A stretch of DNA of 32,461 nucleotides from Verrucomicrobiota bacterium (GTDB lineage Bacteria > Verrucomicrobiota > Verrucomicrobiia > Chthoniobacterales > UBA10450). Of the stretch, positions 2,076 to 9,721 are shown piece after piece. The stretch spans positions 1 to 32,461 of the forward strand of contig QHPX01000077.1 of NCBI GenBank assembly GCA_003219195.1. Direction: 5' to 3'. The notes below the pieces were generated by a model. That model did no database searches. It was not told where the DNA came from and saw only the letters and a program-made list of their open reading frames with translations. The first letter of the stretch is position 1. Every line of letters begins with the position of its first letter. Both the position numbers and the translations under genes were made by a program.

Positions 2076-3658
2076 TCAGTCATTCGGGAAATAGCCAGGC
2101 GGATAGAAAGGCGGTGGCGCGAAGACGTCGGGTCGTTCGAGGAAAACGCGTCCATGCGGGGACGGGACAAATGCGTCTTCGTCATCTGATCGTGGCCTCA
2201 CAGTCACGATGCGGCCAGAAGGCAAACGCAGAATCACTCTTCCGTCAGGCGTCGTGCCAACGAATTGGGTACGCCCCGAACCATGATGGAGCGGCGACAG
2301 TTCTGACTCCTCTTCGTTAGGCAAAGCTCGGGGAATGCGCGCACGTTTGGCTGTCGATGTACGGGAAGACGCCGACCCGAGCGCCTTCTTCTTGCTGTGC
2401 GAACTCGACGACGCCGCTTGCGCCGACGAGTTGTCTTTTTCTCGACCAGAGTTTGCAGCCGAAGCGATTTGCGCCGAAGCGCTCGCAGCCGGAGTTGGTG
2501 CATTGGCAGGAGTTGAAATCGCGGCCGGTTGCGTATTCGAGGTTTGCGCCTGTTGAGCACTCGGTGACAGATTTTGACTTGAATTTGACGCGGCCGGTTC
2601 CGTGTTCGCGACCGGCCGATTTGCAACAGGGGTATGGCGTCCGGGAAGAGATACGCGCCAAGGGCGGTTGCGGCCAGGAGCAGAAGAGCGAACGCGAGGA
2701 ATCCGCGCGACACTTGCGCCAGTGGCGTTTTCGGTTCTCTAGGTTTTTTCGGTTTTTGCGAAATCACCGCCGCCAGCGGAATTCCCAATCGGCGGCCAAT
2801 GGCCTGACGCCTCTCGATTTTTGCCAGGCAGTCCCGGAGTTCACTTTCGAATGCGACCGGGTCTTGCGGACGGTTCTCTGGATTTTCGCGCAGCATGTGC
2901 ACGAGCAAACTCCTCAGCGCTCTTGGCGCCCGTCGCAATTCCGGCAAACGTCTTGTGCGCAAACGCGCTTTCATCCCGCTCACGGCGAGCGGCACCGCAC
3001 CGGTGAGCAGAAAACACATCGTAGCGCCGAGCGAATAAATTTGTGATCGGAAATCAATCTCGTGATCGAGCAACTGTTCCGGGCTGGCGAATTGCGGCGC
3101 TACCGACGGAGCCAGTTCGCGCGCTTCGCTGCCCTCCGAATGCAGCTCCAGGCCAGCGAGACCGAAATTCAAAAGTTTCACAAACGGCCAGCCGCCGTCA
3201 GGCGATTGGCCAGGTACGATCATAAGGTTGGAGGGCTGAATGGCGCGGTGCGCTAAACCAAAGAACGCAGCGGCCGCGACCGCTCTCACTACTTGCAGCC
3301 CGATACGCAGGACCGCGTCGGCCGGCATCGGCCCATGTGCAACGACCCAAGAATCAACCGCTTCGCCTTCCAGATATTCAGAAACCAAGCCGAAATAATC
3401 GTGCTCGACCCCAACCGCTAAGACTTTCGCGATGTTGACGTGATCGAGTTTTCGCGCCGTGCGCGCGCGTTCCTTGAATTGCTTGCGTTTCGTTCGATCG
3501 ACGATCGCGAGCGGGATCAATTGGAGCGTGACCGGTTCCTTCGAGCGCGTGTCGATGGCTTTGTAATTCGTCGCCGCGCCCGTGCGGCTGACTTCGTTCG
3601 GCGAGCCATCCTCGTTCGCGCAGATCCGGTAATGTTTGAAAAAAGTTGTCTGCTCCAT
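2076..3658 (-). CDS. Membrane Ser/Thr pseudokinase, interrupted by a 1-nt frameshift
   Basis: Residues 1-290 have the protein-kinase fold but lack key residues: VAIK lysine is Gln (VTLQL, Q46), HRD is HRA (137-139), DFG is NFG (164-166), and the usual SDIYSLG reads SQIYSLG. N144 and SPE (192-194) remain. A membrane helix (FLAFALLLLAATALGAYLF) follows. The frame then breaks at a G run, 2629-2632 on the + strand. With one more base there, reading continues as an Ala/Ser/Pro-rich exported region with an ILRLPSGRIVTV-type strand, ending at 2076. The protein probably binds rather than phosphorylates a partner. Start ATG 3658 is preferred over TTG 3676. The shift may be an assembly error or true inactivation. 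Confidence 0.75.
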
Positions 3659-3749: not shown

Positions 3750-3823
3750 TGGCTACCCCGCTTGGATTCGAACCAAGAATAACGCCTCCAAAGGGCGCTG
3801 TGTTACCGTTACACCACGGGGTA
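3750..3823 (-). tRNA. tRNA-Gln (UUG)
   Basis: Read on the minus strand the cloverleaf folds fully. The acceptor stem is TACCCCG/CGGGGTA, and the anticodon stem GCGCC/GGCGT carries the loop CTTTGGA, giving anticodon TTG. The T arm is CTTGG-TTCGAAT-CCAAG. The U1-A72 pair and G73 discriminator are the identity features known for bacterial tRNA-Gln. The 3' CCA is encoded (3750-3752). Confidence 0.95.
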
Positions 3824-4066: not shown

Positions 4067-4837
4067 ATGAAGAAGGCGCTGACCATAGAAAATTTACGCG
4101 TGACGATCGCCGACCAGGAGATTGTCCGTGGGCTGAGCCTGGCCGTGCCGCGCGGCGAAGTCCACGCAATCATGGGCCCAAATGGGTCCGGCAAGAGCAC
4201 GCTGGCCAAAGTGCTGGCCGGCCATCCCGATTACCAGGTGACAGCCGGATCCGTCACGATGGATGGCGAAAATCTGCTCGAGCTCGAGCCGGACGAACGC
4301 GCGCGCAAAGGCATTTTTCTCGCATTTCAATACCCAAGCGAAGTTCCGGGAGTCACCATCGCAAATTTTCTCCGAGCCGCCGTCCAGTCACGTTTGCCGG
4401 AGGGCGAGGAACTCGAAGCCACTGACTATTACGCGAAGCTTTACGAAAAGATAGAGCTGCTCGGTATGGATCGCTCGTTCACTTCGCGTGCGGTCAACGA
4501 GGGTTTTTCCGGTGGCGAAAAAAAGCGCACGGAGATTTTGCAGCTGGCCATGCTCGAGCCCAAATATGCGATTCTGGACGAGACCGACAGCGGCCTGGAC
4601 ATCGACGCGCTCAAGACTGTCGCACATGGCGTGAATTCGTTGCGCGGACCCGATATTGGCATATTGTTAATCACGCACTATCAGCGCATTTTGAATTACA
4701 TCGTTCCCGACCACGTGCACGTGATGGTGCAGGGGCGGATCGTGCGCAGCGGCGGGAGGGAGCTTGCGCTGGAGCTTGAAGAAAGAGGATATGATTGGGC
4801 GCGCGAGGGAGCCGCTGAACCAGTGTTTACGAGGTAA
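4067..4837 (+). CDS. sufC: Fe-S cluster assembly ATPase SufC
   Basis: A 256-residue ABC-type ATPase of the SUF Fe-S assembly machinery, the cytosolic partner of the SufB-SufD scaffold. It has Walker [10 protein letters not shown] (37-45), Q-loop Q88, the SufC-type signature FSGGEKKR (147-154) and Walker [13 protein letters not shown] (167-178). The Asp-Glu-Thr-Asp-Ser form is characteristic of SufC. Length matches the family (about 250). ATG 4067 gives the normal N-terminus [10 protein letters not shown]; an upstream TTG at 4055 would only add four residues. sufB begins 8 bases after the stop, so the genes form an operon. It is intact, unlike sufB. Confidence 0.97.
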
Positions 4838-4845
4838 CATCGACA

Positions 4846-6181
4846 ATGAAAACTCAAACTAAATCCGTCGACATCGATCGGAGTGCCGGTGACTTCGCTT
4901 ATCCGGAGGTGCACGTCCGGGATGCGGGCGCGGGCTTGAGCGAAAAAACCGTGCACTACATCTCCGATGTCAAAGAGGATCCCGATTGGGTCCGCGAGTT
5001 TCGTCTCCGCGGATTAAAAACATTTCTCGAAAAACCGTTGCCGACCCATTGGGCGAGCAAAGATCTCGAGACAATCAATTTCGACAAAATTCGTTACTAT
5101 CTCGCACCTGGGACCGGGGCAAAGCGCAGCTGGGACGAAGTGCCGGAGGACATCAAGCGCACATTCGAGCGGCTCGGCATTCCCGAGCAGGAGCGAAAAT
5201 TCCTCGCCGGCGTGGAAGCGCAGTTCGATAGCGAGGCGGTTTACTCAAACATCAAGAAAGCCGTGGGCGAGCAAGGCGTTATCTTCGTTGGATCGACCGA
5301 GGGACTAAAAAATCATCCGGAAATTTTCCGAAAATGGTTCGGCAAAGTCATCCCGATCGGCGACAATAAATTTAGCGCGCTCAATTCCGCCGTCTTTAGC
5401 GGCGGCTCATTCATTTACGTACCGCCGGGCGTGAAAGTGAAACATCCGCTCCAGGCTTACTTCCGGATCAACGCCGAAAACTTCGGCCAGTTCGAGCGCA
5501 CGCTCATTATCGCCGACGAAGGCTCGGAAGTGACTTACATGGAAGGTTGCACCGCACCCAAGTTCAACACCACCACCTTGCATAGCGCGGTGGTCGAACT
5601 GATCGCGCTCAAGGGCGCCAAAATTCAATACATCACCGTGCAAAACTGGTCGGCCAATGTTTTCAATCTGGTGACGAAGCGCGGCCTCGCCCATGAAAAT
5701 GCCGAAGTGAAATGGATCGACTGCAACATCGGCTCGCGACTGACCATGAAATATCCGAGTGTCGTGCTGAAAGGCCGCAAATCCCGTGGCGAGGTGCTCT
5801 CGATCGCGCTCGCCAACAACGGCCAGCATCAGGACACCGGCGCGAAGATGATTCACGCCGCTGATGAAACGACCTCGAACATCATTTCGAAATCGATCTC
5901 GGTCGGGCGACGCGCTCCTCATTAATTCGACTTCGCGCACTGACACCTATCCGGCCATCACCGTCCGCGGCACCGGTAACGCCGTGCAACACGAAGCGAG
6001 CGTAAGCCAGGTGAGCGCAGAACAAATTTTTTACATGCAACAGCGCGGCTTGAGCAAGGCGCAAGCCATGAGCGTGAGCGTGAACGGGTTCGTCACCGAT
6101 CTCGTTCGGCAATTTCCAATGGAGTACTCGGTCGAGCTCAAGCGCTTGATCGAGCTCGAGATGGAAGGCTCGGTCGGATAA
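4846..6181 (+). CDS. sufB: Fe-S assembly scaffold SufB, broken by an internal deletion and frameshift
   Basis: SufB forms the scaffold with SufD and SufC. Frame one runs from ATG 4846 through [23 protein letters not shown] and [22 protein letters not shown] to ISKSISVG, then drifts out of frame and stops at 5925. The rest of SufB resumes in another frame: [36 protein letters not shown] and the family ending [11 protein letters not shown], to 6181. The stretch normally between ISKSIS and the DALL strand (about 25 residues, including the YRGLV motif and the Cys equivalent to E. coli SufB C405) is absent. The junction is at about 5900-5911. As read, the gene cannot make working SufB. Assembly error or an undetected second copy remain possible. 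Confidence 0.9.
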
Positions 6182-6202
6182 CTTTTCCGCCCAATTTGAA
6201 AC

Positions 6203-6226
6203 TGTAGCGGCGGTCTATGACCGCCG
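6203..6226 (+). repeat. REP-like palindrome, family A
   Basis: TGTAG followed by a perfect 8-bp hairpin, CGGCGGTC-TAT-GACCGCCG (6208-6226). It lies in the gap between sufB and sufD. Further copies lie at 9663-9721 (a facing pair) and 27394-27419, always between or at the ends of genes. This resembles a dispersed REP element. It could attenuate read-through from sufB to sufD. Confidence 0.8.
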
Positions 6227-6235
6227 TTCTTGTTC

Positions 6236-8371: not shown

Positions 8372-9124
8372 ATGGAAATTCCCGAAGCAAGGCCAGAACA
8401 AACCTGCTGCCCGATAGTTGAGTTCCGGCAGTACACGCTTCATCGGGGAAAGCGGGATGTGTTGATCGATCTCTTCGACCGGGAATTTATCGAACCTCAG
8501 GAAGCGCTCGGGATGAAGATCATCGGTCAGTTCCGGGATGTTGATAATCGAAATCGATTCGTCTGGCTCAGAGGTTTCCGTGACATGGCTTCACGCGCAC
8601 AAGCGCTGCAGGATTTTTACGGCGGGCCGGTTTGGAAGGCGCACCGCGAAGCGGCGAACGCTACGATGGTTGACTCGGACAATGTCCTGCTCCTGCGCCC
8701 GGCGTCGCCGACCTCCGGGTTCTCGCTCGAAAACAAGGAACGTTCTCGGACTGGATCGAACGAAGTTCTGAAGGAATTGATCGTGGCGACGATTTATTAC
8801 TTTGGTGCGCCTTTGAGCGCCGGCTTCGTTGAATTTTTCGAGCAAACGCTCCAGCCAGCCGTGACAGATACCGGCGCATCGATCCTCGCTTATTTCGTGA
8901 CCGAGGATAGTGAAAACACTTTTCCCGCGCTGCCGGTGCGCGAAGGTGAAAATGTTTTTGTCTGGCTCGCGCGCTTCAAAGATCAAACTGCGTACGAACT
9001 TCACGTCGCCGCTCTGGCTCGGTCCTCGCGTTGGCGAGACGAGATTTCGGAAGAACTGGCGCGACGTCTTAAACAAGCACCTGAGGTCTTGAAACTATCG
9101 CCGACGGCGCGTTCGCTCTTGTAG
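8372..9124 (+). CDS. NIPSNAP family protein
   Basis: A 250-residue protein with two ferredoxin-like NIPSNAP domains. The first (about residues 14-110) has the family pattern IVEFRQYTLHRGKRDVLIDLF ... FVWLRGFRDMASR. The second (about 133-240) repeats it in weaker form: ATIYYFGAPLSAGFVEFF ... NVFVWLARFKDQTAYELH. NIPSNAP proteins resemble dimeric alpha-beta barrel domains, and most bacterial members have no known reaction. There is no signal peptide. It starts 23 bases after the TIR gene, but its base composition is that of the chromosome, so it is likely native and not part of the TIR unit. Confidence 0.85.
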   Translation: MEIPEARPEQTCCPIVEFRQYTLHRGKRDVLIDLFDREFIEPQEALGMKIIGQFRDVDNRNRFVWLRGFRDMASRAQALQDFYGGPVWKAHREAANATMVDSDNVLLLRPASPTSGFSLENKERSRTGSNEVLKELIVATIYYFGAPLSAGFVEFFEQTLQPAVTDTGASILAYFVTEDSENTFPALPVREGENVFVWLARFKDQTAYELHVAALARSSRWRDEISEELARRLKQAPEVLKLSPTARSLL

Positions 9125-9206
9125 CACCGCGACGGAAATTTCTTTTGCATCGCAGACCGGCGCTGTTGTATTTTAGTTCCCCTTTTAAAAGCGTAATTGT
9201 CGATCT

Positions 9207-9656
9207 ATGGACGTAAGCGGACACATCGGCGCAATTTTGAATCAAAAGAGCGACGAGATTTTTTCGATCTCACCCGCGAGCACAGTCTTCAAGGCCATCG
9301 AAATGATGGCGGACAAAAACGTCGGCGCATTGCTCGTGATGACGGGAGAGAAATTGATCGGTATCATGTCGGAGCGCGATTACACGAGAAAAGTGTTTCT
9401 GCGCGGCAAATCGTCGAAAGAAACGCGCGTCGACGAAATCATGTCTAAAGATCTGACAGTCACGCATCCGCAGGAAGGCGTGCAAGAATGTTTGCGGGTC
9501 ATGACCGACAAACATATTCGCCACTTGCCCGTGCTCGACGGCAAGAAAGTGGTGGGCATCATTTCAATCGGCGACCTGGTCAAGCACGTGATCTCCTGTC
9601 AAAGCGCGGCGATCGCGCATCTGGAGAGTTACATTCACGGCGGCTATTCGGGGTAG
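9207..9656 (+). CDS. Stand-alone CBS-domain-pair protein
   Basis: A 149-residue protein made of one Bateman module. CBS1 is about residues 12-65 (VFKAIEMMADKNVGALLVM ... LIGIMSERDY) and CBS2 about 75-132 (VDEIMSKDLTVTHPQEGVQECLRVMTDKHIRHLPVL ... VVGIISIGDLVKHVI). Such proteins bind adenine nucleotides or S-adenosyl compounds and act as energy or ligand sensors on a partner that is usually encoded elsewhere. A near-copy of the window motif (ATTGTCGATCTA) lies directly at the start codon. The gene converges on pyrC across a REP pair. Confidence 0.93.
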   Translation: MDVSGHIGAILNQKSDEIFSISPASTVFKAIEMMADKNVGALLVMTGEKLIGIMSERDYTRKVFLRGKSSKETRVDEIMSKDLTVTHPQEGVQECLRVMTDKHIRHLPVLDGKKVVGIISIGDLVKHVISCQSAAIAHLESYIHGGYSG

Positions 9657-9662
9657 CTGTTC

Positions 9663-9721
9663 TGTAGCGGCGCTCTATGAGCGTCGAAATTTACATCCGG
9701 CGGTCACAGACCGCCGCTACA
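9663..9721. repeat. Inverted pair of REP-like palindromes between convergent genes
   Basis: Two family A copies face each other. The left copy (9663-9686) is a degenerate hairpin around CGCTC-TAT-GAGCG. The right copy (9697-9721) is in reverse orientation with a perfect GGCGGTC-ACA-GACCGCC hairpin, and the outer arms TGTAGCGGCG/CGCCGCTACA can also pair. The layout resembles paired REP elements (BIMEs) in enterobacteria. It lies between convergent 3' ends and could act as a bidirectional terminator or 3'-end stabiliser. The right copy supplies the pyrC stop codon. Confidence 0.75.

Follow-up and report, generated by a model that had tools for sequence, protein, structure and literature searches.

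The window, a 32,461-nucleotide stretch of Verrucomicrobiota DNA, carries a gene for a membrane pseudokinase. The pseudokinase family is lineage-specific and new, in that it is set apart from known families via the descriptions given in a review; its general kind, the bacterial pseudokinase, is already known. In the reading that we favor, with a probability of about 0.6, the protein is a non-catalytic adaptor or sensor that spans the membrane, with an ancestrally inactive Hanks-type kinase domain as its inner half. The family provides an example of a family-wide pseudokinase which forms one clade in the tree and has its own, probably outer, module, and its invariant residues name a candidate binding surface. 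If the adaptor reading is true, a kinase fold has been turned into a membrane signal relay which works without ATP chemistry. The coordinates of the features are collected in Table 1.

Table 1. Positions of the pseudokinase gene, its parts and its neighbors in the window
Feature	Position	Strand	Basis
Broken ORF	ATG 3656-3658 to stop at 2234	-	Open reading frame listing
Coding stretch with full protein-kinase fold and membrane helix	2633-3658	-	
Pseudokinase domain, residues 1-285	2804..3658	-	Pfam PF00069, AF2 model, PDB matches
Q46, replaces VAIK lysine	3521..3523	-	Motif reading and family residue counts
A139, replaces HRD aspartate	3242..3244	-	Family residue counts
Q141, replaces catalytic-loop lysine	3236..3238	-	Family residue counts
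N164, replaces DFG aspartate	3167..3169	-	Family residue counts
W104, family-invariant	3347..3349	-	Family residue counts
W157-P158, loop preceding the DFG-like motif	3185..3190	-	Family residue counts
Membrane helix, residues 312-337	2648..2725	-	AF2 model and hydropathy
Junction lacking 82 bp, source of the frameshift	2627..2633	-	Comparison with both same-genus gene holders
Arg-rich out-of-frame continuation of the broken ORF	2234..2632	-	
Tail found in frame in orthologues and shifted out of frame here (linker, conserved module and an Arg/Pro-rich stretch at the C-terminus)	2076..2630	-	
Conserved module GxTxDGxxxLxLPSGRxxxV, predicted exported	2193..2276	-	Tail alignment and L002 tail model
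tRNA-Gln(TTG), directly upstream of the pseudokinase gene	3750..3823	-	
sufC, divergent neighbor	4073..4837	+	
sufB split by 74-bp gap	5903-5925		Comparison with G003 and G002

Kinase fold, lost motifs and invariant residues

Residues 29-265 match the Pfam family PF00069 (E 8.9e-22, 78.2 bits for a cut-off of 31.7), and the AlphaFold2 model of residues 1-342 has a mean pLDDT of 84. This model aligns with the structures of PknA, Stk1 and PknB at Z 26.0-27.4, with an rmsd of 2.4-2.9 over 240-255 residues; some eukaryotic kinases align to it with nearly equal scores. With a match above the cut-off and a bilobal model, the domain belongs by its fold to the Hanks-type protein kinase superfamily. 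An earlier note on this DNA had claimed that the kinase fold and the membrane helix are retained while Q46, HRA and NFG replace catalytic residues. The first claim is confirmed by the PF00069 match, the model and the structure alignments, and the second by the reading of the motifs, which in the window are VTLQ, HRAIQPSN and NFG. Judged by these motifs, with Q, A and N at the catalytic positions, the protein is not an active Hanks-type kinase.

The catalytic residues were then counted in 64 family rows from 63 genomes (G040 gives two rows) and in 30 motif-intact kinases, a non-random set composed of other kinases of the window's genus and of matches from the same family, order and class, several of which had already been seen as motif-intact before labelling. 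The HRD aspartate is kept in 0/64 family rows, the catalytic-loop lysine in 1/64, the DFG aspartate in 8/64, the helix-C glutamate in 9/64 and the VAIK lysine in 19/64, whereas each of the five is kept in 30/30 of the motif-intact kinases. The asparagine position of HRDxxxxN holds N or D in 61 of the 64 rows. Orthologues with intact catalytic residues, which for the earlier note would have indicated a recently dead gene only, did not appear. With its degraded motifs and its family-wide conservation, the protein is, on sequence grounds, a bacterial Ser/Thr pseudokinase of the general kind. In five rows K at VAIK occurs together with D at DFG, so ATP binding is possible for some members.

Several residues are invariant or nearly so in the family and rare in the motif-intact kinases: W104 (64/64 versus 2/30), P158 (64/64 versus 1/30), W157 (63/64 versus 0/30), F216 (64/64 versus 8/30), and, each in 61/64 family rows, G150 (2/30), G155 (3/30), R118 (7/30) and D266 (2/30). 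Q122 and K161 are also invariant in the family and are common in motif-intact kinases as well (28/30 and 29/30). The segment that starts at the N of HRDxxxxN and extends to the DFG position has a length of 21 residues in 64/64 family rows, versus 14-21 in the 30 motif-intact kinases. The invariance concerns a patch formed by W104 and W157-P158 rather than the ATP site. Helices D and E and the strand 7-8 turn adjoin one another in kinases, and in MAP kinases they form the docking groove. We infer a putative protein-binding surface at this helix D/helix E/strands 7-8 patch. The pseudokinase domain would bind a cytoplasmic partner through the W104/Q122/W157-P158-K161 patch and not through ATP. 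The window's genome contains eight other kinase-domain genes, and the partner may be the product of one of them.

Membrane helix, predicted outer module and the break in the window's copy

The AlphaFold2 model places a helix at residues 312-337. Its 19-residue hydropathy is 2.28 in the window, and a value of 1.6 is exceeded in 58/58 of the relatives scanned. The C-terminal part is predicted to be exported; since basic residues dominate the N-side of the helix in only 39 of these 58 relatives, export is likely and not settled. The helix is followed by a variable Ala/Ser/Pro-rich linker, then by a conserved small beta-sheet module of about 28 residues, with the consensus GSxRARxVGxTxDGRxILRLPSGRxxIVxP in the tail alignment. 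In the model of the tail of L002, a same-genus gene, the module is three-stranded with a pLDDT of about 92-93 over tail residues 51-70, for a whole-tail pLDDT of 68.8 and pTM of 0.32. The comparison of the module with PDB sequences gave E values of 1.8 and 2 at best. The C-terminal domain of biotin protein ligase (BPL_C) was considered as its identity and rejected: it matches 16/47 tails, with a best E of 1.5e-6, and does not match the L002 tail. The module would lie beyond the cytoplasmic membrane, where it would touch an envelope ligand or protein.

The interval 2629-3658, to which the earlier note had assigned the gene, does contain the kinase domain and the helix, and the frame does break after the helix. 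The proposed cause, a slip in a run of G, was not retained. Compared with the two same-genus relatives that carry the gene, L002 (94% identical to the window) and L003 (91%), both open through the junction, the window is 82 bases short directly behind the helix. These 82 extra bases in both relatives, in open genes, exclude G-run slippage as well as programmed frameshifting at 2629. The gap, private to this assembly, puts the orthologous tail out of frame and would cut off the predicted exported part.

A second gap is found in sufB, where at 5907 the window lacks 74 bases compared with the sister genomes G003 and G002. Apart from these two pieces, no sufB was found in the window's genome, which is 87% complete. 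Both gaps are out-of-frame and they lie 3.3 kb apart; two such gaps so near each other, one of them in a core gene, favor an assembly fault as the cause. For the 82-bp gap, an assembly fault is therefore probable, with a recent loss as the alternative. A real recent deletion, leaving a membrane pseudokinase without its outer part, would fit a gap placed cleanly after the helix, with no assembler-misleading repeat seen at its ends; we consider it rather unlikely, given the second gap in the only sufB found and the presence of the full stretch in two sister genomes. The frameshift after the helix had been read as a meaningful separation of the two halves, a view that finds no support, as the close relatives are open at this point and the sufB gap lies nearby.

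A more specific version of the adaptor can be proposed, in which a one-piece envelope sensor was invented once in the family: the outer beta-sheet module would bind an envelope ligand, and the pseudokinase domain, no longer dependent on ATP, would relay the state through the patch resembling the MAP kinase groove, the recipient being an active kinase or the products of neighboring genes. We regard this version as speculative and doubtful in its entirety.

Descent, selection, distribution and gene neighborhood

In a tree of 91 rows, 61 pseudokinases and 30 motif-intact kinases are split by one branch with support 100/100. Rows left out of both the tree and the counts are L045-L049, which are the same places as L002, L003, L018, L032 and L021, the second L077 copy (stop inside), L146 (132-residue match), both L004 pieces, L010-L012 and L017 (cut). 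L054, L068 and L079, broken or partial, are in the counts and out of the tree, and L107-L129 are places retrieved a second time. The phylogeny that the earlier note had suggested, in order to see whether the loss is shared, gives a positive answer: with this two-sided branch and the HRD aspartate in 0/64 rows, the catalytic loss appears common to the whole clade and to have occurred long ago. The root was set at midpoint, for drawing only, so that the tree is most simply explained by one ancestral loss but does not prove it; the tree tool also warns of long branches, among them L139, L065 and L066 on the pseudokinase side.

Median values of dN/dS are 0.17 for residues 1-285 (range 0.06-0.41, 24 pairs of relatives), 0.35 for the linker (0.14-1.79, 24 pairs) and 0.24 for the last 90 residues (0.11-1.35, 23 pairs). 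When the frame of the kinase codons is shifted by one base, the ratio is 1.58. For motif-intact kinases (seven pairs) it is 0.07-0.23; the pseudokinase values are somewhat higher, which indicates a somewhat looser constraint. For the window and L002, dN/dS is 0.36 at a dS of 0.08, too little divergence to be weighed. These ratios argue that the family members are kept under purifying selection and are not decaying. Since selection retains it, the pseudokinase probably has a role in binding or sensing. The earlier idea of a conserved non-catalytic scaffold is strongly supported by the median of 0.17 together with the complete loss of the HRD aspartate.

A dead or dying kinase gene, in which catalytic loss and frameshift are steps of pseudogene decay, is for the same reasons very improbable. 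It would account for the frameshifted copy of the window, for L054 (G075), shortened to 328 residues, for L025 (G068), which shifts frame in its tail, and for the seven family genomes with a listed completeness of at least 90% in which neither the kinase part nor the tail was found. Against it stand the open orthologues of 482-767 residues in most genomes examined, the contrast of 0.17 with the out-of-frame ratio, and a loss common to the whole clade. Reuse of the fold for a different ATP-dependent reaction, as known from SelO or SidJ, could draw on the N or D kept at HRDxxxxN and on the five rows with VAIK K and DFG D, but it is hardly credible given the rarity of the DFG aspartate, VAIK lysine and helix-C glutamate, and an invariance located elsewhere.

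The distribution of the family was followed with protein and profile searches, in which a limited number of candidates was scored per genome (10, 5, 11 or up to 52, depending on the family, order or class search), so that the absence of a copy is not final. Among the 83 genomes of this bacterial family, the protein search gave matches at E <= 1e-40 in 65, some of which are motif-intact kinases. The kinase profile, searched against the 213 genomes of the order, matches above 300 bits in 63 genomes; the other matches listed reach at most 267 bits, except a second copy in G027. A pseudokinase fragment (L146) is held by G059, and four genomes (G005, G013, G036 and G039) show the tail only, in frames beginning at a contig end. 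Altogether the kinase part and/or the tail module were found in 68/83 family genomes. The tail profile matches 65 of the 83, at one place each (two in G027 and G068), and finds 61 of the 63 kinase-part genomes, the exceptions being G026 and G050, where the contig ends. As this profile was built largely from sequences that it then matches, and most of its rows come from these genes, its informative part is the absence elsewhere, within the candidate limit. In a class sample of 384 genomes, an identical set of 10 genomes, all of this bacterial family, is matched by the kinase profile at E <= 1e-78 and by the tail profile at E <= 1e-7; neither part was found in three family genomes listed in this sample. 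Within the order and class searches and their limited candidates, the kinase part and the module were not found beyond this bacterial family. No copy was found in G002, the third member of the genus. The seven genomes at least 90% complete that show neither part suggest that the gene is dispensable. Two other proteins were observed: L139 (G040:C144), a second and more degenerate pseudokinase, in whose ORF the conserved module is not seen, and L083, a kinase with intact motifs from this bacterial family, in which Sel1 repeats follow the kinase domain.

The gene neighborhood was examined in 25 loci from 24 genomes, few neighbors being compared with Pfam, and neither a constant neighbor nor a partner emerged. 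In 7/25 loci sufC lies on the opposite strand, either directly adjacent or separated by one ORF: the window (g1), one g11 locus and five g14 loci. A member of the sufC cluster stands further off in one g5 locus, and the loci of genus g6 have different neighbors. In 7/8 g14 loci and 0/17 others, the pseudokinase gene is followed by a gene whose product looks secreted and matches CHAP weakly (E 0.036); in L160 this small protein lies at 8845-9657 (cluster c5, on the pseudokinase's strand), a possible cell-wall link. In the window, the convergent neighbor at 633-2054 has a GH75 chitosanase-like domain (PF07335, E 2.9e-10), and its cluster (c10) is also near the pseudokinase gene in other loci. 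Membership in a defense system was rejected, the PADLOC matches being judged generic kinase similarity.

ARAGORN detects a tRNA-Gln(TTG) in 9/15 loci scanned. Judged by its T-loop, the tRNA-Gln is upstream of the pseudokinase gene and shares its strand in the window, L158, L163 and L168, and is upstream on the opposite strand in L049, L159-L162 and L164. In G003, the full tRNA-Gln adjoins suf on one contig, while the pseudokinase, on another contig, adjoins a 58-base copy of the 3' part of the tRNA, which is the expected leftover of an element inserted at a tRNA. The tRNA-Gln thus looks like an insertion site: a 3' tRNA fragment followed by unrelated DNA is seen in G003 and partly in G001 (L102), and the places concerned are 3750-3823 in the window, 17945-18109 in L101 and 2149-2300 in L103. 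The window also contains, at about 6197-6230 and 9659-9693, a repeat of about 30 bases in both orientations, which resembles REP elements; nearly identical copies of it are numerous in all four genus genomes.

Comparison with known kinases and pseudokinases

Bacterial pseudokinases are little studied according to the abstract of a review (PMC12599244), and the string "verrucomicrob" is absent from this review. In the literature searched, no title or abstract opening names the present family, and the primary kinase-atlas families are compared here via this review alone. The PASTA kinases PknB and Stk1, among the best solved relatives in sequence and fold, share the succession of kinase, helix and outer part; they differ in that the window family has lost the catalytic residues, and no PASTA match was found in five family members scanned whole. 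The NCBIfam model NF033483 gives 101.9 bits with the window part and 86.1 and 123.8 with two relatives, for a cut-off of 450. The DYD pseudokinases, which have Arg for the VAIK lysine together with DYD, are different: R at VAIK occurs in 1/64 rows and the window has NFG. The GLW pseudokinases have, like the window family, a membrane region C-terminal to the pseudokinase domain, but in them GLW replaces HRD (PMC12599244), whereas G at the H position occurs in 0/64 family rows.

The MviN pseudokinase and its ActPs3 family resemble the window family by a complete loss of catalytic motifs, a membrane link and a scaffold function (PMC12599244), the latter being putative in the window family. ActPs3 has a hallmark deletion in the activation loop (PMC12599244), which does not characterize the window family: the distance from DFG to APE has a median of 31 residues (18-56) in the 64 rows, versus 32 (28-34) in the 30 motif-intact kinases, some family rows being shorter than any of these 30. 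EssB/YukC, a transmembrane pseudokinase of type VII secretion in Firmicutes, acts as a scaffold (PMC12599244) and is likened to the family by a cytoplasmic kinase fold, the loss of all catalytic motifs and one membrane helix (PMC12599244). EssB is part of a secretion system, whereas for the window family no constant gene context was seen in the 25 loci, few neighbors being compared with Pfam; its domain is still a clear PF00069 match, and its outer part consists of a linker and a small beta-sheet. The window family may work like EssB or MviN.
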